In this document: one piece after another, positions 26,454 to 35,978 of the stretch
How the letters are laid out: every line of letters starts with the position of its first letter
Numbering within the stretch: position 1 is the first letter of the stretch
NCBI GenBank assembly: GCA_028749255.1
Contig: JAQTYE010000008.1
Coordinates: 1-37,673, forward strand
Direction of reading: 5' to 3'
DNA length: 37,673 nt
Source: Paracoccaceae bacterium
GTDB taxonomy: Bacteria; Pseudomonadota; Alphaproteobacteria; Rhodobacterales; Rhodobacteraceae
The notes under the pieces: model-generated
What the model saw: the letters and a program-made list of their open reading frames with translations, nothing else
The model's database searches: none
Told to the model about the DNA's origin: nothing
Translations under genes and position numbers: made by a program

Positions 26454-26479
26454 TGTCCGCCAGTCGGACACATTGTCCG
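26454..26479. promoter_or_regulatory. 17-bp palindromic operator upstream of the TRAP genes
   Basis: TGTCCGC-CAG-TCGGACA (26454-26470) is an imperfect 17-bp palindrome. A third half-site TGTCCG follows, making a second inverted repeat CGGACA-CAT-TGTCCG (26465-26479). Nearly the same palindrome recurs at 29467 and 34371. It lies about 160 bp before the first TRAP gene. Binding by the MhpR-like regulator encoded at 32939 is inferred from the shared pattern. Confidence 0.6.
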
Positions 26480-26619
26480 TGTCAGTTCGCTTCCCCCTGC
26501 CCCCCGGCTATCCCAAAGATGGGAGCACGCGTTGCGGTTTGGGAGAATACGCAGCAGTTTGCACGACAGAACATGACCAGACCGCCAAGGCGGTGGGTTG
26601 CGCTTGGGAGGGCGCTGCG

Positions 26620-27105
26620 ATGGTGCGCAAGATCAATCCGCTGATTTCAAAGGGGCTTCTGAGCGCCGCAACGGGGTTCTTCCTGCTCGGCACAGGGGTC
26701 ACGGTCGTCGATGTCGTCGCGCGCAAACTTGTGGGCTTCAACGTTCCCGGCGCGATCGAGCTGACCTGCTATTCGGTGGGCTTCGGGGCGCTTTTGTCGA
26801 TGCCCGTCTGCTATGCGACGCGCAGCCATGTCACGGCGAAGCTGCTTTCGGAACTCATGCCGACGCTGTTCCTGCGCCCGCTCGGCCGGCTTTCGACTGT
26901 CGCCTCGCTGATCTTCGCGGCGCTGCTCGTCTGGATTCTCGGCACCAATGCGATCTCCAAGCTCGGCTCGCCCGAGACCTCGGCCGATCTCGGCCTGCCA
27001 ATGCCGGTGCTGCTGTCGGTGGTCTCGGTCACGCTCGGCATGGCGTTCGTCGCCGCCTGTGCGGGCCTCTGGTTCGAATGGCGCCGCGCCGGGGGTGAGC
27101 AATGA
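26620..27105 (+). CDS. TRAP transporter small permease (DctQ type)
   Basis: 161 residues with four hydrophobic segments (about 10-32, 45-62, 85-105 and 125-148), the expected topology for the DctQ subunit. ATG 26620 follows GGGAGGG and starts with a short basic N-terminus before the first helix. The 49-codon upstream extension in the ORF track is rejected as it is hydrophilic and lacks family resemblance. The stop overlaps the next start (ATGA). It scaffolds the large permease in a sodium- or proton-driven importer. The context of aromatic-ring enzymes suggests an aromatic acid substrate. Confidence 0.85.
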   Translation: MVRKINPLISKGLLSAATGFFLLGTGVTVVDVVARKLVGFNVPGAIELTCYSVGFGALLSMPVCYATRSHVTAKLLSELMPTLFLRPLGRLSTVASLIFAALLVWILGTNAISKLGSPETSADLGLPMPVLLSVVSVTLGMAFVAACAGLWFEWRRAGGEQ

Positions 27106-28403
27106 GCGGGCTTGTGCTGGGCGGGTTCGGTTTCGTTGCCGCTATCGTTCTGATCTTTCTGGAAATTCCGGTGGCGGTTGCGCTGGGGCTTGTCGGGCTT
27201 GGTGGCGTTGCCATGGTGATCGGCGTCTCGGGGGCGATGACCGTGGGTGCGACCACGATCTGGGACAGCGTGACCAATTACACGTTGACGATGCTGCCGC
27301 TCTTCGTGCTGATGGGCAACCTGGCGGCACAGAGCGGGCTGTCGGGGCGGCTGTACCGGGCGATGTCGGTGCTGTTGGGGCACCGGCGCGGGGGGCTTGC
27401 ACTCGCCACGATCGGGGCCTCTGCGGGGTTTGGCATGATCTCGGGCTCGTCGCTCGCGACCACCGCCACGATGAGCCGGATCGCGCTGCCCGAGATGCAG
27501 GCGGCGGGCTATTCTCGGTCGTTGTCGGCAGGGTCGGTCGCTGCGGGCGGCACGCTGGGCATCCTGATCCCGCCTTCGACGGTGCTGGTGATCTATGCCT
27601 TCATCGCCGAGCAATCCATTCGCGAACTGATGCTGGCGACCGCCGGGCCGATCGTTCTGGCGATCTCGCTTTATTGCCTTGCGATCTGGCTGCCGCTCTG
27701 GCTTGGCATCTCGACCGCGCCCGAGCGCGAGCGCGCCCGTGGTGCCGAGCGGGTCGAGGCCTTGCGTGAACTGGTGCCGCCGGTCGGGATTTTCGGGCTG
27801 ATCATGGGCGGGCTCTATTCCGGCCTGTTCACCGCCAACGAGACGGCGGCGATAGGGGCGGCGGTCGTGCTGGCCTATGGCCTGCTCTCGCGCAGGCTGA
27901 ACTGGACAGGCTTCTTCGACGCGGCGATGGACACCGCGCTGACCTGCGGCGCGCTCTACCTCGTGCTGATCGGCGCCAACCTTTTCAACTTCTTCCTCGC
28001 GCTTTCGGGGCTGCCCTTCGGGTTGACCGGCTTGTTCTCGGGCATCACCGATCAACCGCTTTTGGTGATCCTTCTGATGCTGGTGATCTATCTGGCGCTC
28101 GGTACGCTGATGGACAGCCTTGCGATGCTGCTCTTGACCGTGCCGCTCTTCGTGCCGATTGCCCAGGCTGCGGGGATCGACCTGGTCTGGTTCGGCATCT
28201 TCGCGGTGATGGTGGTCGAGATGGGGCTGATCACGCCGCCGGTCGGCATGAACCTTTTCGTCCTGAAAACCACCAACCCCGAGATCGAGATGATGGAGTT
28301 GTGGCGCGGCGTCGCGCCTTTCGTTCTGGCCGATCTGGTGCGCGTGGCCATGATCATCGCCATCCCGGCGATCATCACCTGGCTTCCGCATCATGCAATT
28401 TGA
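27102..28403 (+). CDS. TRAP transporter large permease (DctM type)
   Basis: 433 residues with about twelve hydrophobic segments. DctM hallmarks include LEIPVAVALGLVGL at the N-terminus, LPLFVLMGNLAAQSGLSGRLYRA, GGTLGILIPPSTVLVIYA and, near the C-terminus, ALGTLMDSLAMLLLTVPLF and ELGLITPPVGMN-like MGLITPPVGMNLFVLK. It is the channel-forming subunit that imports substrate against an ion gradient. Translationally coupled to the small permease. Leu codons CTC and CTT look more frequent here than in the flanking chromosomal genes, in keeping with a transferred module. Confidence 0.92.
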   Translation: MSGLVLGGFGFVAAIVLIFLEIPVAVALGLVGLGGVAMVIGVSGAMTVGATTIWDSVTNYTLTMLPLFVLMGNLAAQSGLSGRLYRAMSVLLGHRRGGLALATIGASAGFGMISGSSLATTATMSRIALPEMQAAGYSRSLSAGSVAAGGTLGILIPPSTVLVIYAFIAEQSIRELMLATAGPIVLAISLYCLAIWLPLWLGISTAPERERARGAERVEALRELVPPVGIFGLIMGGLYSGLFTANETAAIGAAVVLAYGLLSRRLNWTGFFDAAMDTALTCGALYLVLIGANLFNFFLALSGLPFGLTGLFSGITDQPLLVILLMLVIYLALGTLMDSLAMLLLTVPLFVPIAQAAGIDLVWFGIFAVMVVEMGLITPPVGMNLFVLKTTNPEIEMMELWRGVAPFVLADLVRVAMIIAIPAIITWLPHHAI

Positions 28404-28431
28404 ATTTCGGACATCCAAGGGAGGGATATCC

Positions 28432-29457
28432 ATGGTCCAACATACTCTGAAATCCGCCATCGCGGCACTTGCGCTTGGCGCACTGGCCTTCGGCACATTG
28501 GCGCCCAGCACGGCGCACGCGCGGGAGATGCGTGTGTCGTCCTTCGAGCCGCCGCAGGGCTTCTATTCCTCGAAGGTTCTGCAAGTCTGGATCGACCAGG
28601 CCAATGCGAAACTGTCGAAGAGCGCGCAGTTCCGGCTGTACCCGGGCTCGATCCTTGGCGCACCGCCGGCGCAGGCCGAACTGGTGAAGGCGGGGGTCGC
28701 CGATGTCGCGCTGGTGGTGCCGACCTACACGCCGGGCCTGTTTCCGCTGTCGGGCGTCGTCGAGGTGCCGGGCATGGTGACCAGCTCGACCGAAGGCGCA
28801 CAGATCCTGAACACGCTCGAGGCCGAGGGGGCGCTGGCCAAGGAATATGCCGATTACAAGATCATCGCGCTGTTCACGACGCCGGCCTATCGCTTTTTCA
28901 TGACCGATGGCGGCGTGCGTCTGCCCGCGGATCTGGCTGGGAAGAAGCTGCGCACGCCCTCGCCCTTCGGCTCGACCCTCTTCGGCATGCTTGGCGCCTC
29001 GGGTGTGTCGATCCCCGCACCGCAGGTCTATGAAAACCTTGAACGTGGTGTGGTCAAGGGGGCGGTCTGGGTGATGGATGCCTATCGCACCTTCCGCTTG
29101 AACGAGGTCGCGCCGACGATCACCACGACAAAGTTCATGGCCTCGCCGATGGCGGTCTTGATGAACAAGGCTGCCTATCAGGCGCTGTCGGATGCCGACC
29201 GCGCGGTGATCGACGAGATGTCGGGCAAGGCGGCCGCGGACTGGATCGCCAAAGTGGTCGATGCGGCCGATGCCCAGATCGAGGCCGATTTCCGTGCGGG
29301 CGGCAAGGTCACCTTCATCGAGCCCACCGCCGAGGAAACCGCCGCTTGGGAGGCCGCCTTGGCCGGGGCGCCCGCCGCCTGGGTCGCAGGGCAGCCCGAC
29401 CCGGCGGCCGCGCAGGTCGTGCTTGATCGCGCCGCGGCGATCTCGGCCGGGAACTGA
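28432..29457 (+). CDS. TRAP transporter substrate-binding protein (DctP family)
   Basis: 341 residues with a signal peptide (AHA|REM cleavage) and the DctP fold. Typical segments are FRLYPGSILGAPPAQAELVKAG, a central LAGKKLRTPSPFGSTLFGMLG, and the helix ANEDIFRAL-equivalent VYENLERGVVKGAVW. The long C-terminal helix is also present. It binds substrate in the periplasm and delivers it to the DctQM pair. GGGAGGG before 28432 selects this start; the ORF-track start 13 codons upstream is rejected. A hairpin/palindrome follows the stop. The substrate is not identifiable from sequence; an aromatic or phenylpropanoid acid is inferred from the neighbours. Confidence 0.9.
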   Translation: MVQHTLKSAIAALALGALAFGTLAPSTAHAREMRVSSFEPPQGFYSSKVLQVWIDQANAKLSKSAQFRLYPGSILGAPPAQAELVKAGVADVALVVPTYTPGLFPLSGVVEVPGMVTSSTEGAQILNTLEAEGALAKEYADYKIIALFTTPAYRFFMTDGGVRLPADLAGKKLRTPSPFGSTLFGMLGASGVSIPAPQVYENLERGVVKGAVWVMDAYRTFRLNEVAPTITTTKFMASPMAVLMNKAAYQALSDADRAVIDEMSGKAAADWIAKVVDAADAQIEADFRAGGKVTFIEPTAEETAAWEAALAGAPAAWVAGQPDPAAAQVVLDRAAAISAGN

Positions 29458-29463
29458 CCGCCA

Positions 29464-29490
29464 CCCTGTCCGCCCAGTGGACGGACAGGG
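29464..29490. promoter_or_regulatory. Operator palindrome embedded in a terminator-like hairpin
   Basis: CCCTGTCCG-N9-CGGACAGGG is a perfect 9-bp stem just after the TRAP binding-protein stop. Inside it, TGTCCGC-CCA-GTGGACG (29467-29483) matches the 17-bp palindrome found at 26454 and 34371. The site is centred about 60 bp upstream of the predicted transcription start of the dioxygenase gene, close to the position I recall for the E. coli MhpR operator (17 bp, near -58). It may serve both as operator and as an mRNA end or processing hairpin. Confidence 0.58.
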
Positions 29491-29522
29491 ATCGCCCCCT
29501 GCGTTGGCGCGCAAGCGCCCGC

Positions 29523-29528
29523 TATAAA
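29523..29528 (+). promoter_or_regulatory. Candidate -10 box for the catabolic operon
   Basis: TATAAA stands out in GC-rich sequence 33 bp before the dioxygenase start. No good -35 is found at 17 bp, as expected for an activator-dependent promoter. It predicts transcription from about 29535. Confidence 0.45.
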
Positions 29529-29560
29529 GGGGTATGCCACTTCAACCGATGGAGAAGACC

Positions 29561-30544
29561 ATGGCAATCAATGCACTGGGCTATCTTGGCGTGCGCTCTG
29601 ACCGGCTCGACGACTGGTCAGATTTCGCCGGAAAATTGCTGGGCATGCAAAAAATCGACCGCGGCGGCAAGGCGCTGGCGTTCCGTATGGATGACCGTGT
29701 GCAGCGGCTTCTGGTGTCGGATGAACCGGGCGAGACGCTGGCATTTCTGGGCTTTGAGGTCGCGCATCGCGACGATCTGCAGGCCTATGCCGCGCGCCTT
29801 GATGCCGCGGGCGTCAAGGTCACTCTCGGCACGCCCGAACTGGCCGACCGGCGCTTTGTCGGCGACATGATCTGGTTCACGGATCCGGGCGGCAACCGGG
29901 TCGAGCTGTTCCACGCGCCGATGATCGCCTCGGACCCCTTCGTGCCGGGTCGCCCGATTGACGGCTTCATGACCGGTCCGCTTGGTATGGGCCACGCGGT
30001 GCTGCATGTGAACAACATCGAGATCATGATGCCGTTCTACCGGGATCTGCTCGATTTCCACGTTTCGGATTACGGGCTCAAACCCTATGGCCTCTACTTC
30101 TTTCATCTGAACAACCGCCACCATTCCTTTGCCATGGTCGGGTCGGGGCGTCAGGGGTTCCACCATTTCATGGTCGAGTTCCAGAACCTCGACGATGTCG
30201 GCCAGGGGTTGGATCTGGCGCAGCAGCAAGAGGGTCGCGTGGCCTATACGCTCGGGCGGCACACCAACGACTACATGACCAGCTATTACGCCAATTCGCC
30301 TTCGGGGTTCTTTGTCGAAAATGGCTGGGGCGGGCGGCTGATCGAGCCGGAAACCTGGGAGCCGCACGAAACCACCGTCGGCCCGAGTTTTTGGGGTCAC
30401 GACCGGCTCTATCTGGACGAAAACGATCCGGCGCGTCTGGCGCTTTTGGAAATGCGCCTTGAGGCGGGCCGCAACGGGCGCCGCGCCCCGCCGATCGCGG
30501 ATTGTCCGTGGCTCTACGGCGAACTCGCCAAACACGCCAAGTAA
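29561..30544 (+). CDS. Extradiol ring-cleavage dioxygenase, BphC-like (vicinal oxygen chelate)
   Basis: 327 residues, two-module VOC fold, strongly resembling 2,3-dihydroxybiphenyl 1,2-dioxygenase. It cleaves a catechol ring next to the hydroxyls using Fe(II). Metal ligands are conserved: His145 in MGHAVLHV, the His pair at 201-202 in FHHFMVEF and Glu253 in FFVENGW. Active-site residues are also kept: NNRHHSF (about 187-188), GRHTNDYM (H234) and a following Tyr (about 243). The ORF track starts at 29534, but that ATG falls at the predicted transcription start. ATG 29561 has GGAGAA and matches the BphC N-terminus (MAINALGYLGV). It is first in the catabolic operon. Confidence 0.9.
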   Translation: MAINALGYLGVRSDRLDDWSDFAGKLLGMQKIDRGGKALAFRMDDRVQRLLVSDEPGETLAFLGFEVAHRDDLQAYAARLDAAGVKVTLGTPELADRRFVGDMIWFTDPGGNRVELFHAPMIASDPFVPGRPIDGFMTGPLGMGHAVLHVNNIEIMMPFYRDLLDFHVSDYGLKPYGLYFFHLNNRHHSFAMVGSGRQGFHHFMVEFQNLDDVGQGLDLAQQQEGRVAYTLGRHTNDYMTSYYANSPSGFFVENGWGGRLIEPETWEPHETTVGPSFWGHDRLYLDENDPARLALLEMRLEAGRNGRRAPPIADCPWLYGELAKHAK

Positions 30545-30561
30545 CGAGGGGGGAAGACCCA

Positions 30562-32055
30562 ATGGAAAGCTTCGATGTAGCCATCGTGGGGTATGGCCCC
30601 GCAGGCGCCACGCTTGCGCATCTGCTGGGGCAATGCGGTCTCAAGACCGTGGTGCTGGAGCGTGAAAGCGCCGCCTATCACCTGCCGCGCGCCGTGCATT
30701 TCGATGCCGAGGTGATGCGGGTGCTGCAATGGATCGGTATCGCCGAGAAGATCGAGCCGATGACCGCGTTGCATCCCGGGATGCGTTTCCTTGACCGCGA
30801 TGGCAAGCTGCTGCTTGACTGGCCGCGCCCGCAGGGCGAGGGGCCGCAGGGCTGGCGCGCGAATTACCGTTTCCACCAGCCGGATCTGGAGACGCTGTTG
30901 CGCGACGGTCTTGCTGCGCGGCCCGAGGTCTCGGTGCGCACCCGCTGTGACGTGTTCTTCGTCGAGGATCAGGGCGAGGTGGTCGAGATCCGCTACGAAG
31001 ATATGTCTTGTGGCAAGGTCAACCGGATCGCGGCAAAATATGTCGTGGGATGTGATGGCGCCCGTTCGCTCATCCGGCGCTACATCGAAAGCGGTATGGA
31101 GGACTACGGCTTCCACGAACGCTGGCTGGTGGTCGATCTGATCCTGAATCGCGAAAAACCCGAGCTTGGCGACCACTCGATCCAGTATTGCGTGCCCGAG
31201 CGTCCCGCGACCTATGTCCGCGGGCCGGGCATGCGCCGCCGCTGGGAAATCACGGTGCGCCCCGAAGAGGATTCGGCCGAAATCTCGAAACCCGAACGGG
31301 TCTGGGAACTGCTCTCGGAGTGGATCAAGCCCGACGAGGCCGAACTTGAACGCACTGCGGTCTATGTCTTCCATTCGCTGGTGGCGGACGACTGGCGCAA
31401 GGGTCGGCTCATTCTGGCGGGTGATGCTTGCCACCAGACCCCGCCTTTCATGGGGCAGGGGATGTGCGCGGGCACCCGTGATGTCGCGAACCTCTACTGG
31501 AAGCTTGCGCTGATTTGTCAGGGCAAGGTGACCGGCGAGGATGCCGAACGGTTGCTCGATACCTATGAAAGCGAGCGCAAACCCAATGCCCGCGAGTATA
31601 TCCAGACTGCGGTGCGTCTGGGCGGGCTGATCAACACGATCGGCACCGAGACCGCGTTGCGCGCTGCGCTTCCGGGGTCGGACGGCTCGGCGCGGATGGA
31701 AAGCATCGCCCCGCCGCTCGGGTCGGGGCTCGGGCGGGGCGACAAGGCCGGGCGGCTCTTTGGTCAGCCGCGTCTGGCCGACGGTCGTTTGATGGACCGC
31801 GTCTTTCCGCACGCCTTCGTGGTGGTGGCTGACGCCGCGCTGACCCAGGGCCTTGATCTGCCCGAGGGCGTGGGCCTCGTGACCACCGCCAATTCCAATG
31901 CGGCCGAGCATCTGGCCCGGTTCGGCGCGCGCGCCACCGTGCTGCGTCCCGACCGCCACACACTCGGCGGTGCCGATACCGCCGAAGAGCTGCGCGCGCT
32001 GATCGCGCTCGTGCTTCCGAACCCCCTTACCCTGCAAGAACCGGAGATGGTCTGA
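30562..32055 (+). CDS. FAD-dependent aromatic hydroxylase, MhpA-like
   Basis: 497 residues of the flavin monooxygenase (PHBH) fold. The FAD-binding motif is GYGPAGATLAHLLG (residues 10-23), the DG motif CDGARSLIRR is near 163 and the GD motif LAGDACHQTPPFMGQGMCAG is near 285. It is most like 3-(3-hydroxyphenyl)propionate/3-hydroxycinnamate hydroxylase, which adds a hydroxyl ortho to a phenol to yield a catechol. That product is the natural substrate type for the dioxygenase encoded 17 bp upstream. The true start at 30562 follows GGGGGGAAG; the ORF-track extension overlaps the dioxygenase gene. The length is shorter than E. coli MhpA (about 554), mainly at the C-terminus. Confidence 0.87.
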   Translation: MESFDVAIVGYGPAGATLAHLLGQCGLKTVVLERESAAYHLPRAVHFDAEVMRVLQWIGIAEKIEPMTALHPGMRFLDRDGKLLLDWPRPQGEGPQGWRANYRFHQPDLETLLRDGLAARPEVSVRTRCDVFFVEDQGEVVEIRYEDMSCGKVNRIAAKYVVGCDGARSLIRRYIESGMEDYGFHERWLVVDLILNREKPELGDHSIQYCVPERPATYVRGPGMRRRWEITVRPEEDSAEISKPERVWELLSEWIKPDEAELERTAVYVFHSLVADDWRKGRLILAGDACHQTPPFMGQGMCAGTRDVANLYWKLALICQGKVTGEDAERLLDTYESERKPNAREYIQTAVRLGGLINTIGTETALRAALPGSDGSARMESIAPPLGSGLGRGDKAGRLFGQPRLADGRLMDRVFPHAFVVVADAALTQGLDLPEGVGLVTTANSNAAEHLARFGARATVLRPDRHTLGGADTAEELRALIALVLPNPLTLQEPEMV

Positions 32056-32057
32056 CC

Positions 32058-32900
32058 ATGAAACTTTGTTCCTTCATCCATGATGGCGTGCCGAGCTACG
32101 GCTTGGTGACCGACGCGGGTATCGTCGATCTGGGCAAGCGCTTTGCCGAGCCCACGCTGCGCGATTTCCTCGCCGCGGGCGATCTGGGTCGCGCCGCAGC
32201 CCTCGCGAGCGAACCGGCCGACTATGCCTTTGACGCAGTGGCGCATGCCCCGGTCATTCCGAACCCCGACAAGATCATCTGCGTCGGGCTGAACTATCAT
32301 GCGCATAACGAGGAAACCGGCCGCGAAGAGACGCCGAACCCGGTCTTGTTCGCGCGCTATGCGGGCAGCCAGATCGGCCACGATGCCCCGCTGCTCAAGC
32401 CGCTGGAAAGCGACCAGTTCGACTATGAGGGCGAGCTTGCGGTGATTATCGGCAAGCAAGGCCGTCGCATTTCCGAGGCCGATGCGCTTGAGTATGTCGC
32501 GGGCTATGCCTGCTACAATGATGCCTCGGTGCGCGACTGGCAAAAGCACACGCATCAGTTCATGCCGGGCAAGACCTTCGCCGATACCGGCGCCTTTGGC
32601 CCGTGGATGGTGACCGCCGACGAGATCCCCGATCCGACCACGCTGCATCTGCAAACCCGGCTCAACGGTCAGGTCGTTCAGGATACCGGGGTGAACCTGC
32701 TGGTGACCTCGATCCCGCGGCTGATCGCCTATTGCTCGACGATCCTGCCGCTGTTGCCGGGCGACGTGATCGTCTCGGGCACCCCGGGGGGCGTCGGCGC
32801 GCGCCGCACTCCGCCGCTGTGGATGAAAGACGGCGATGTCTGCGAGGTCGAGATCTCGGGCATCGGCGTGCTGTCGAACCCGATCAAGGCCGAGGTCTGA
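32058..32900 (+). CDS. Fumarylacetoacetate hydrolase (FAH) family protein
   Basis: 280 residues with the FAH fold. Conserved blocks are ICVGLNYHAHNEE (74-86), the metal-binding DYEGELAVIIG (E124, E126), NDASVRDW (D155) and GTPGGVGARRTPPLWMKDGD. The family includes acylpyruvate and fumarylpyruvate hydrolases, hydratases and decarboxylases, all acting on 2-oxo-enoic acids such as ring-fission products. It starts 2 bp after the hydroxylase stop, so it belongs to the same operon. Since no MhpC-type serine hydrolase is near, it is the best candidate for processing the ring-fission product. Which C-C bond it acts on is not known. Confidence 0.88.
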   Translation: MKLCSFIHDGVPSYGLVTDAGIVDLGKRFAEPTLRDFLAAGDLGRAAALASEPADYAFDAVAHAPVIPNPDKIICVGLNYHAHNEETGREETPNPVLFARYAGSQIGHDAPLLKPLESDQFDYEGELAVIIGKQGRRISEADALEYVAGYACYNDASVRDWQKHTHQFMPGKTFADTGAFGPWMVTADEIPDPTTLHLQTRLNGQVVQDTGVNLLVTSIPRLIAYCSTILPLLPGDVIVSGTPGGVGARRTPPLWMKDGDVCEVEISGIGVLSNPIKAEV

Positions 32901-32938
32901 GGCTTTCGCCGCGGGGCCGGGCATGACATTGTGGCGCC

Positions 32939-33751
32939 ATGACCGACCCCGAAAACGACCCGGCAAAGCCCCGGACGAAATCCGAGCCTGTGCGTGCGCT
33001 TACGCGCGGGCTTGCGATTCTGCGCCATGTCAATACCGCGGGCGAGGCGCGCCCGGGCGAGATCGCGCGGGCGCTGAACCTGCCGCGCCCGACCGTCTAC
33101 CGCCTGCTCGAGACGCTTGAGGAAGAGGGCTATGTGGTCTTCTCGGGCTCGGCCAGTCTGGTGCGGGTCACACGGCTTGCCGCCTCGCTGGGCGACAGTT
33201 CGGCGCTGGGGTCCGAGCTCTGCCAGGCAGCGATGCCACTTTTTGCCGACTACAGCGCCCGCCTGGTCTGGCCGCTCGATCTGACCGTCTATGAAAATGC
33301 CGCGATGGTGATTCAGGAAACCACCCACGGTCGTTCGCCATTGTCGATTGACCGCGCGATGATCGGCTATCGGCTGCCGGTGCTGCGCACCTCGGCGGGG
33401 CGCGCCTATCTGGCCTTTTGCCCAGAGGAGGAACGCGCGCTGATCGTGGCGCATCTGCACCGGCTGGGCGATCCGGCAGACCTGCCGTTTCTTGACGCGG
33501 GCAGGCTCGCGCGGATGATCACCGAGACGCGCGCGCGGGGCGTGGCGCTGCGCGAGGCGGGCGAGTTCCGCCCCCAGACCGCCTCGATTGCGGCACCGAT
33601 CCTCGGGCCGGGCGGGGTTCTGGGCTGCGTGTCGATGATCTGGATCCGCACCGCGATGTCGGCGCGCAAGGCGCTTGAGAGTTTCGGTGATCCCCTGCGC
33701 GAGATCGCCGACAAGATCGCGGCCGAGCTGTCCGAAGCTTCCCGAAGCTAG
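32939..33751 (+). CDS. IclR-family transcriptional regulator, MhpR-like
   Basis: 270 residues with an N-terminal winged helix (about 15-75, with LARALNLPRPTVYRLLETLEEEGY-like sequence) and an IclR effector domain (about 90-265). The effector part strongly resembles E. coli MhpR, which activates the mhp genes with 3-hydroxyphenylpropionate: VWPLDLTVYENAAMVIQETTH, then LSIDRAMIGYRLPVLRTSAG and AFCPEEER. It most likely controls this catabolic module through the three 17-bp palindromes. It follows the FAH gene by 38 bp. Its TAG stop overlaps the stop of the convergent CMD gene in the shared tetramer CTAG. Confidence 0.88.
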   Translation: MTDPENDPAKPRTKSEPVRALTRGLAILRHVNTAGEARPGEIARALNLPRPTVYRLLETLEEEGYVVFSGSASLVRVTRLAASLGDSSALGSELCQAAMPLFADYSARLVWPLDLTVYENAAMVIQETTHGRSPLSIDRAMIGYRLPVLRTSAGRAYLAFCPEEERALIVAHLHRLGDPADLPFLDAGRLARMITETRARGVALREAGEFRPQTASIAAPILGPGGVLGCVSMIWIRTAMSARKALESFGDPLREIADKIAAELSEASRS

Positions 33752-34305
33752 AGCGGCACGGCGTCCATTTCGGCCGCGATATTCGCGTCGATCGGCGTCT
33801 CGTAAGTCATCAGAAGATACCCGAGAACCGAATAGAAGCCGACCGTGGCGATCAGGTCGATCACACCCGCGCGCCCGATTGCAGCGGCGAGTTCGGCCTC
33901 GAGCGGCGCGGGCAGGCGCTTGAGGTCAAAAAGCGCATCAACTGCGCGCGCGATCAGCCCGTCCTCGCCCTCGGGGGTCCCGCGCAGCGCCGCGATCCGG
34001 TCGTCGGGAAAGCCCAGGGTGCGTGCGCGGCTGACGTGATGCGCCCATTCATAGGCCGAGCCCATTCGATGCGCGGCGCGCAGGATCACGACTTCGGAAC
34101 GTGCCGGGCCAAGGGCGGTTTCCTTCACCACATGCTGGCGCAGCGGCGCCCAGGCACGCAACAGCGCCGGGTGATGCGCCATCACACGGTAAACATTGAG
34201 CGCGCCGGCAAATCCGCCCCGCAGATCGGCAATCTCTGCTGGCCAGTCGGCATCGGTCAGGGGCTGGCAGGGCAGGGCGGTGCTGTTGGGGGGGGTGTCG
34301 GTCAT
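33748..34305 (-). CDS. Carboxymuconolactone decarboxylase (CMD)-family protein
   Basis: 185 residues, all-alpha CMD/AhpD-like fold. The core reads ARSEVVILRAAHRMGSAYEWAHHVSRARTLG with the E-W-x-x-H-H variant and no CxxC pair, so it is not an AhpD-type peroxidase. Related proteins appear in many aromatic and aliphatic catabolic clusters with mostly unknown roles; true 4-carboxymuconolactone decarboxylase activity is not implied. AGGAGAG before ATG 34305 selects this start. It is divergent from the GST gene with a shared operator at 34371, and its stop overlaps that of the regulator. Confidence 0.82.
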   Translation of the reverse strand: MTDTPPNSTALPCQPLTDADWPAEIADLRGGFAGALNVYRVMAHHPALLRAWAPLRQHVVKETALGPARSEVVILRAAHRMGSAYEWAHHVSRARTLGFPDDRIAALRGTPEGEDGLIARAVDALFDLKRLPAPLEAELAAAIGRAGVIDLIATVGFYSVLGYLLMTYETPIDANIAAEMDAVPL

Positions 34306-34370
34306 GTCTCTCTCCTCGCTGGGGCTCAGGAAACCTTGGACGGTGGATCGGGCAAGCACGGGGGCGGGGT

Positions 34371-34387
34371 TGTCCGCAAGGTGGACA
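34371..34387. promoter_or_regulatory. 17-bp palindromic operator between the CMD and GST genes
   Basis: TGTCCGC-AAG-GTGGACA is the best of three copies of this palindrome (one mismatch between arms). It sits 66 bp from the CMD start and 128 bp from the GST start, so one site could serve both divergent promoters. The other copies precede the TRAP genes and the dioxygenase. Binding by the MhpR-like regulator is inferred. Confidence 0.62.
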
Positions 34388-34514: not shown

Positions 34515-35114
34515 ATGGAACTGTTTCACTCGCCGGGCTCGTGCTCGATCGGTATCCGCGTTCTGCTTGAGGAAATCGGGCAACCCTACACGCTGCACAT
34601 CATCGACGTGAAGAGCGGCGCGCAGCGCAGCCCCGATTATCTGGCGCTCAACCCCAAGGGCAAGGTGCCCGCGCTCGTCCGCCCTGATGGTAGCCTGCTG
34701 ACCGAATTCCCGGCAATCGCGCTTTGGCTGGCGCGCGCCTATCCGGCGGCGGGGCTCTTGCCCGAGGGGCTTGAAGCCGAGGTGCGCGCGATCGAGTTGC
34801 TCGATTACATCGTCGCGAGCCTGCACATGCGCGGCGCGACCTTTGCTTTGGTGCCGCAGAAATTCGTCGCCGACCCAGCGGCTCAGGCGGAACTCGCGAC
34901 GCATGGGCGTGCGGTGCTCGCGGCTGGCTATGCGGCGCTGTCCGAGCGGCTGATGGCGGGCGATTACGTGATGGGCGCCTTCTCGATTGCCGATGCGGCG
35001 GCCTTTTATCTGATCGGTTGGCACGAGCGGGCGGGGCTGAGCCTCGATCCGGTGCTCACGGCGTATATGGCGCGGATGCGGGCGCGGCCCGCGATCCAGC
35101 GCGCCCTGACCTGA
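34515..35114 (+). CDS. Beta-class glutathione S-transferase, BphK-like
   Basis: 199 residues with the thioredoxin-fold N-domain (MELFHSPGSCSIGI; Cys10 as in bacterial beta-class GSTs), a cis-Pro region GKVPALV and the SNAIL-type LLTEFPAIALWLA, followed by an all-helical C-domain with the GDYVMGAFSIADAA motif. It resembles BphK of biphenyl operons, which acts on (chlorinated) ring-fission products. The Cys10-type motif argues against a zeta-class maleylpyruvate isomerase. It probably handles a reactive intermediate or isomerises a ring-fission product here. It ends in a T-rich terminator. Confidence 0.85.
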   Translation: MELFHSPGSCSIGIRVLLEEIGQPYTLHIIDVKSGAQRSPDYLALNPKGKVPALVRPDGSLLTEFPAIALWLARAYPAAGLLPEGLEAEVRAIELLDYIVASLHMRGATFALVPQKFVADPAAQAELATHGRAVLAAGYAALSERLMAGDYVMGAFSIADAAAFYLIGWHERAGLSLDPVLTAYMARMRARPAIQRALT

Positions 35115-35219: not shown

Positions 35220-35978
35220 CTAACGCAGGACGCGGCGCAGACCGTCCTGAACCTTCAGCAGGGGCGGTAGATACAGATCGACCAGATCGCGCGGCGAGAC
35301 CTGCACCGCGGCAACCCCGGTGTTCAGCGCGGCGACCACGCGTCCTTGGGCCGAGAACAGCGGCACGGCAATCGAGCGCAGGCCCAGCTCGACCTCCTGA
35401 TCAATCAGCGCATAGCCCTTTTGCTGTGTTTCGGTGATTTGCGCCATGATTTCGGCAGGGTCGGTCAGGCTGAAGGTCGTGCGCGGCGCCAGGTTCGAGC
35501 GCTCGATCAATGCACGGGCCTCTGGCGCGGGCAGGGCGGCCAGCAACACCCGCCCCATCGAAGTACAATGCGCGGGCAGCCGCGAGCCGGGCAACAGGCC
35601 GATCGACATGACGCGCCGTTGCGCAGCTCGGGCCAGATAGACGATTTCGGTTTCATCAAGGATCGAAACCGAGGTCGACTGCCCGATCTGATCGCTCAGC
35701 TGATCCAGCCAGGGCTGCACCAGCTGTGCCAGTGGCAGCGCCGCCAGCGCCCCCATGCCCAACCGCAGAACCCGCGGCGTCAGGGTAAAGAACTTGCCGT
35801 CATAATGGGCATAGCCAAGCTCGTGCAGGGTCAGCAGACAACGCCGCGCAGTGGCCCGGTCAAGCCCGGTCATGTCGGCGACATCGGCAATGGCGAGTCG
35901 CGGTTGCTCGGCCCGGAAGGCCTCGATCACGCGCAATCCCTTGCCCAGCGAGGCGATAATGTCGGTTTTGTTCACCAT
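35220..35978 (-). CDS. pcaR: IclR-family regulator of the beta-ketoadipate pathway, PcaR type
   Basis: 252 residues. The winged helix (about 8-65) has IASLGKGLRVIEAF and MTGLDRATARRCLLTL, as in the PcaR/PcaU/PobR branch of IclR. The effector domain follows with SVSILDETEIVYLAR, LPAHCTSMGRVLLA and IDQEVELGLRSIAVPL. This group senses beta-ketoadipate or protocatechuate and controls pca genes. It is divergent from pcaIJF, the PcaR target set in pseudomonads. The ORF track extends 157 codons too far upstream, across the promoter and into pcaI. ATG 35978 starts the conserved domain. No ribosome binding site precedes it, and the promoter places the start at or next to the first base of the message. 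Confidence 0.87.
   Translation of the reverse strand: MVNKTDIIASLGKGLRVIEAFRAEQPRLAIADVADMTGLDRATARRCLLTLHELGYAHYDGKFFTLTPRVLRLGMGALAALPLAQLVQPWLDQLSDQIGQSTSVSILDETEIVYLARAAQRRVMSIGLLPGSRLPAHCTSMGRVLLAALPAPEARALIERSNLAPRTTFSLTDPAEIMAQITETQQKGYALIDQEVELGLRSIAVPLFSAQGRVVAALNTGVAAVQVSPRDLVDLYLPPLLKVQDGLRRVLR

Follow-up and report, generated by a model that had tools for sequence, protein, structure and literature searches.

A conserved operator set of a predicted MhpR-like regulon in an aromatic-acid catabolic module of Paracoccaceae

Three palindromic sites in a catabolic module

In a 37,673-nucleotide stretch of the genome of a Paracoccaceae bacterium (contig JAQTYE010000008.1; hereafter, the window), a 17-bp palindrome occurs at three promoters of a catabolic module that also encodes an MhpR-like transcription factor of the IclR family (32939–33751). 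We consider it highly probable that the three palindromes are operators of this regulator, which would most likely act from approximately −58 to −60 as an inducer-dependent activator. The sites, their confinement to the module, their conservation, their spacing from the promoters, and their link to the type of the recognition helix were computed directly. They form a real conserved operator set of an MhpR-like regulon. The geometry is that of the Escherichia coli mhp promoter, the half-site is of an already described class, and binding by the regulator is predicted. The sites are as follows.

26454–26470, plus strand: operator 1, TGTCCGCCAGTCGGACA, upstream of the TRAP transporter genes
29467–29483, plus strand: operator 2, TGTCCGCCCAGTGGACG, upstream of the extradiol dioxygenase gene
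34371–34387, strand unassigned: operator 3, TGTCCGCAAGGTGGACA, between the genes for a carboxymuconolactone-decarboxylase family protein (CMD) and a glutathione S-transferase-like protein (GST), with spacing that suits the CMD promoter

The initial annotation of the window located all three palindromes correctly, and each fits the pattern TGTCCGCN3KYGGACR exactly. As it also stated, all of them are intergenic: operator 1 precedes the ATG of trapQ (26620), operator 2 lies between the stop codon of trapP (29457) and the ATG of the dioxygenase gene bphC (29561), and operator 3 is flanked by the ATGs of CMD (34305, minus strand) and GST (34515). According to the genome-wide scan that it had proposed, the motif is not frequent outside the module: the whole genome (3,383,484 bases) contains three exact matches, all of them inside the module, with approximately 0.56 matches per genome and 0.006 per window expected from the base composition (64.6% GC). 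One-mismatch matches elsewhere in the genome are no more numerous than those of the backward-read control (13 vs. 33), and thus no further regulon members are claimed there; in five related genomes, such matches are also at the background level overall, though some fall in the module. A fourth near-match, at 31215, falls within the monooxygenase gene, and no counterpart was observed among the orthologous loci.

The symmetry of the unit is captured better by TGTCCR-N5-YGGACA. In a table of 30 sites, G at position 2, T at 3, C at 5, GG at 13–14, A at 15, and C at 16 are invariant, and the center is mostly C-A/C-G. The alignment of the bphC promoters also shows an invariant GGG 4 bp past the site. 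Downstream of operator 1, at 26474–26480, there is an additional TGTCCG half-site, which is not seen in other trap promoters.

Conservation of the sites across loci

A search with one genome per species yielded 22 loci with a regulator 57–87% identical to that of the window, nearly all with the palindrome; four additional loci and the window itself complete a 27-locus set. At least one palindrome is present in 25 out of these 27 loci with LPRPTVYRLL-type regulators, and the total of 43 sites compares with 0.75 expected under a first-order Markov model, whereas a comparison set of 26 loci centered on more distant IclR proteins contains four. Most of the sites precede trapQ or bphC, and loci that contain CMD often have one before this gene too. 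Hence, the conservation at orthologous modules anticipated in the initial annotation is observed, and for the TRAP, dioxygenase, and CMD promoters it spans several genera; in particular, the site upstream of trapQ is kept in Sinirhodobacter, Gemmobacter, Celeribacter, Donghicola, Allorhizobium, and others. In the Bradyrhizobium-like loci, which are rearranged so that bphC is divergent from the regulator gene, sites are found at the new junctions, namely, between iclR and bphC and before mhpA. With all exact genome matches in the module and the sites kept in orthologous modules, the assignment of the three sites to one regulon, as originally suggested, is supported.

In the Xanthobacter and Azospirillum loci, a site precedes a gene of an MFS transporter, which allows prediction of co-regulated transporters elsewhere. 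Sites L035:4640, L036:4650, and L034:11553 stand before long open reading frames, those of L035 and L034 encoding MFS transporters that apparently replace the TRAP genes. The distribution of the regulator is patchy: besides the window's own protein, there are five close homologs among 148 relatives and one in the remainder of a 385-genome class sample. In addition, a gammaproteobacterial metagenome-assembled genome has a perfect TGTCCG-N5-CGGACA (L043:1738–1754) directly before the gene of an IclR protein with 34% identity and a different helix, LPRTTTYRIL.

Promoter geometry and the proposed mechanism

Ungapped alignments of the DNA downstream of the sites, anchored on the site alone, covered 12 bphC, 12 trapQ, and six CMD promoters. 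The best −10-like position shared by all three promoter types is 38 bp (37–39) past the site, with shuffle p-values of <0.001 for bphC, <0.001 for trapQ, and a weaker 0.09 for CMD. As the three promoter types are mutually non-homologous, the shared offset is informative despite the kinship of loci within each type. The elements identified in the window are listed below.

26509–26514, plus strand: −10-like TATCCC, 38 bp after operator 1, a weak match
29523–29528, plus strand: −10-like TATAAA, 39 bp after operator 2, with the predicted start near 29535
34328–34333, minus strand: −10-like TTTCCT toward CMD, 37 bp after operator 3
34350–34355, minus strand: −35-like TTGCCC toward CMD, 16 bp ahead of the −10-like hexamer

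The distance of 37–39 bp places the site center approximately 58 bp before the transcription start, and the earlier estimate of approximately −60 for the dioxygenase gene is right, given the position of TATAAA and the predicted start. No −10 element is present toward GST at 37–39 bp from operator 3, and therefore this operator is assigned to CMD; all six aligned CMD promoters have CTTG or CTTC at the −35 distance. Thus, of the initial placement of the third site between CMD and GST, the position stands, while the spacing ties it to the CMD promoter. A scan with the sigma-70 consensus recovered none of the proposed promoters, as expected with poor −35 elements.

In E. coli MG1655, TATACT comes exactly 38 bp after the mhp operator GGTGCACCTGGTGCACA, so that the suggested resemblance to the mhp layout extends from the 17-bp palindrome to the distance between the operator and the −10 element. 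The E. coli operator is reportedly centered at −58 and acts in activation, and E. coli MhpR is annotated as an activator in the database.

From these observations, we infer binding by the regulator and activation rather than repression, as well as the nature of the inducer. In the proposed mechanism, a dimer (or a pair of dimers) would bind TGTCCR-N5-YGGACA centered approximately 58–60 bp before the start and, with an aromatic inducer bound, would aid RNA polymerase at three promoters with poor −35 elements, those of the TRAP uptake operon, of the operon encoding the dioxygenase, monooxygenase, hydrolase, and the regulator itself, and of the divergent CMD gene. The inducer would probably be a compound of the hydroxyphenylpropionate type. 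As the regulator gene is the last one in the catabolic operon, activation would raise the regulator's own level. This reading assigns a regulator, an operator, and three promoters to the aromatic-acid module of Rhodobacterales, Rhizobiales, Azospirillum, and Pelagibius.

Several points weigh against it. The spacing of the hexamer was spotted by eye ahead of testing, and the −10 match is weak at the window's trapQ and CMD promoters and fails in the Bradyrhizobium-like locus L079. The strict pattern finds no site in two loci (L042 and L089), and the loci share descent, so that their counts are not independent events. Finally, the association of the helix type with the half-site, described below, tracks two clades and hence is a correlation only, with few independent changes.

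The regulator and the half-site specificity

The similarity of the regulator to MhpR, noted in the initial annotation, is confirmed by its match to the MhpR-type model NF007339 (PRK09834-type) with 405.9 bits, the cut-off being 299; the scores of the sister models NF007341 (169.7 of 269) and NF007342 (163.3 of 251) are below their cut-offs. Both family domains, PF09339 (HTH_IclR, 60.4 bits) and PF01614 (IclR_C, 40.9 bits), score above theirs. The recognition helix is LPRPTVYRLL throughout the regulator group, with the PRPS variant in one locus.

The half-site GTCCGC indeed differs from GTGCAC of E. coli MhpR, and the difference coincides with that of the helices. Where the helix is of the E. 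coli type, LHRTTVRRLL or MHRTTVKRML, GTGCAC palindromes in the same 17-bp frame are present in seven out of seven loci and TGTCC ones in none, whereas the GTGCAC half-site is found in none of the 27 LPRPTVYRLL-type loci. In locus L018, two GTTCAC-type palindromes (1354 and 2275), possibly representing a third specificity, flank the gene of a regulator with 39% identity and helix LSRPTVFRLL.

The initial annotation also suggested a possible new specificity within the family, and this suggestion is not supported. The IclR motif class TGT-11-ACA (TGTYCRYW3RYGRACA) comprises 41 orthologous groups and is enriched in aromatic metabolism, and the motifs given in the same study include TTGTCCGATSATCGGACAR of Acinetobacter PobR, that is, TGTCCG-N5-CGGACA, as well as GGTGCACCTGGTGCACA of MhpR (Suvorova and Gelfand, 2021; PMC8222616). 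The 17-bp arms TGTYCRY and RYGRACA are present in our sites, and the A/T-rich central W3 is absent. Thus, the half-site belongs to a described class rather than being a novelty within the IclR family, even though E. coli MhpR has another specificity. Among titles of the literature on IclR and TGTCCGC, none concerns this regulon, though its orthologous group may already be in the supplementary tables of PMC8222616.

We see an even chance that MhpR-type regulators retain a fixed geometry (the 17-bp palindrome and 38 bp to the −10 element) and have switched the half-site between GTGCAC, GTCCGC, and GTTCAC together with HRTTVR, PRPTVY, and SRPTVF, respectively; these few residues would then set the DNA letter that is read, and exchanging them would swap the choice of operator. 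The unchanging geometry combined with the varying half-site provides a natural series in which the helix residues that determine the DNA specificity of IclR-family activators can be sought.

Alternative interpretations

Many IclR-family proteins are repressors, and the regulator could bind the same sites as a repressor relieved by the inducer. A recent example of an IclR protein regulating aromatic uptake and catabolism is PheR (PMC13273656). However, the site center near −58 is upstream of the −35 element at all three promoters, rather than over the −10 element or the start; the −35 elements are poor; and the layout is the same as at the E. coli mhp promoter, which is controlled by an annotated activator. 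Although this is the main remaining alternative to activation, we regard it as unlikely.

It is very improbable that the actual binder is the neighboring IclR protein of the PcaR/PobR type (35220–35978; TIGR02431, 317.9 bits), the sole other match to the regulator in its own genome (E 0.001), even though the PobR operator TTGTCCGATSATCGGACAR (PMC8222616) has the same TGTCCG half-site. Two genomes of the same genus (G003 and G015) keep PcaR (82–83%) and have neither the MhpR-like gene nor strict sites, whereas genome G056 has the module with perfect sites and no PcaR at E 1e-70. Moreover, no pcaR gene was found within the 20 kb covered in Gemmobacter, Celeribacter, and Donghicola, and the pcaR–pcaI gap, where autoregulation would be expected, has no such site. 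By this co-occurrence and the empty gap, the PcaR-like neighbor is excluded as the main binder.

Even less probably, the palindromes are RNA hairpins, that is, terminators or structures of mRNA ends, and not operators. Such a role is suggested by one feature of the window:

29464–29490, plus strand: larger inverted repeat around operator 2, CCCTGTCCG-N9-CGGACAGGG, a possible trapP–bphC hairpin

This repeat has a 9-bp stem directly after the trapP stop codon (RNA fold −21.1 kcal/mol, z −3.5) and is also found in Gemmobacter and Celeribacter. Nevertheless, it is not followed by a T-run, sites 1 and 3 are at operon starts and not ends, and the core keeps the same letter at eight positions across 30 sites, which a hairpin does not need; the distance to the −10 element is constant, and Azospirillum and Pelagibius keep the bphC site without trapP upstream. 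The pure hairpin interpretation is therefore rejected, save as an extra role at site 2, where operator and hairpin functions may coexist and the repeat could end or protect the TRAP mRNA. Long repeats, similar or shifted, occur in several orthologs.

Chance similarity of GC-rich sequences has a negligible probability: although palindromes of this kind are at the background level in genomes without the module, and a related pattern matches at least once in 38 out of 148 relatives, such similarity is contradicted by the genome restriction, the excess of sites over expectation, the conservation, and the promoter spacing, and is rejected.

Genes of the module

The genes of the module and its neighbors are as follows.

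26620–27105, plus strand: trapQ, TRAP small permease, by operon position and orthology (no NCBIfam match)
27102–28403, plus strand: trapM, TRAP large permease DctM (TIGR00786, 291 bits)
28393–29457, plus strand: trapP, TRAP solute-binding protein DctP (NF037995, 103 bits)
29561–30544, plus strand: bphC, type I (BphC-like, VOC) extradiol dioxygenase (248 bits with TIGR03213, short of its equivalog cut-off; Pfam BphC_D1 and Glyoxalase)
30562–32055, plus strand: MhpA-like FAD monooxygenase (NF004829, 560 bits, exceeding the cut-off of 390)
32058–32900, plus strand: FAA hydrolase family protein, probable cleavage-product hydrolase (PF01557, 211.9 bits; PDB relatives)
32939–33751, plus strand: MhpR-like IclR regulator, predicted binder of the three operators (NF007339; HTH_IclR and IclR_C; co-occurrence with the sites)
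33748–34305, minus strand: CMD, AhpD-like (PF02627, 37.3 bits)
34515–35114, plus strand: GST (NF007831, 102 bits, below the cut-off), of uncertain regulon membership
35220–35978: PcaR/PobR-type IclR neighbor (TIGR02431, 317.9 bits)

Convergent in orientation, the genes of the regulator and CMD share four bases at their stop codons (33748–33751). As the substrate or inducer, a hydroxylated phenylpropanoid acid would be a plausible guess at best.

Comparison with known systems

The closest parallel is MhpR–mhp of E. coli K-12, which likewise has an MhpR-like IclR regulator, a palindrome of 17 bp sharing the frame (GT at 2–3 and C at 5, mirrored), the operator 38 bp before the −10 element, and, among its targets, genes of an MhpA-type monooxygenase and of an extradiol dioxygenase. 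The systems differ in the half-site (GTCCGC here vs. GTGCAC) and helix (LPRPTVYRLL vs. LHRTTVRRLL), and here three operators are present. The regulator gene is the last one in its operon, downstream and co-directional, whereas E. coli mhpR is divergent from mhpA; a BphC/VOC dioxygenase takes the place of MhpB and an FAA hydrolase that of MhpC, and a TRAP transporter is added.

With the TGT-11-ACA class (PMC8222616), the sites share the 17-bp length, the TGTYCRY...RYGRACA arms, and the over-representation of aromatic-compound regulons in the class, whereas the center is GC-rich here and W3 there. PobR and PcaU require a third direct repeat, which does not appear to be conserved here. By enzyme type, the module resembles hcdABC of Pseudomonas mandelii 7HK4, which degrades 3-(2,4-dihydroxyphenyl)propionate and combines a flavin hydroxylase, an extradiol dioxygenase, and an FAA-family hydrolase in one operon (PMC6222606); the words "regulator" and "IclR" are absent from the text of that paper.

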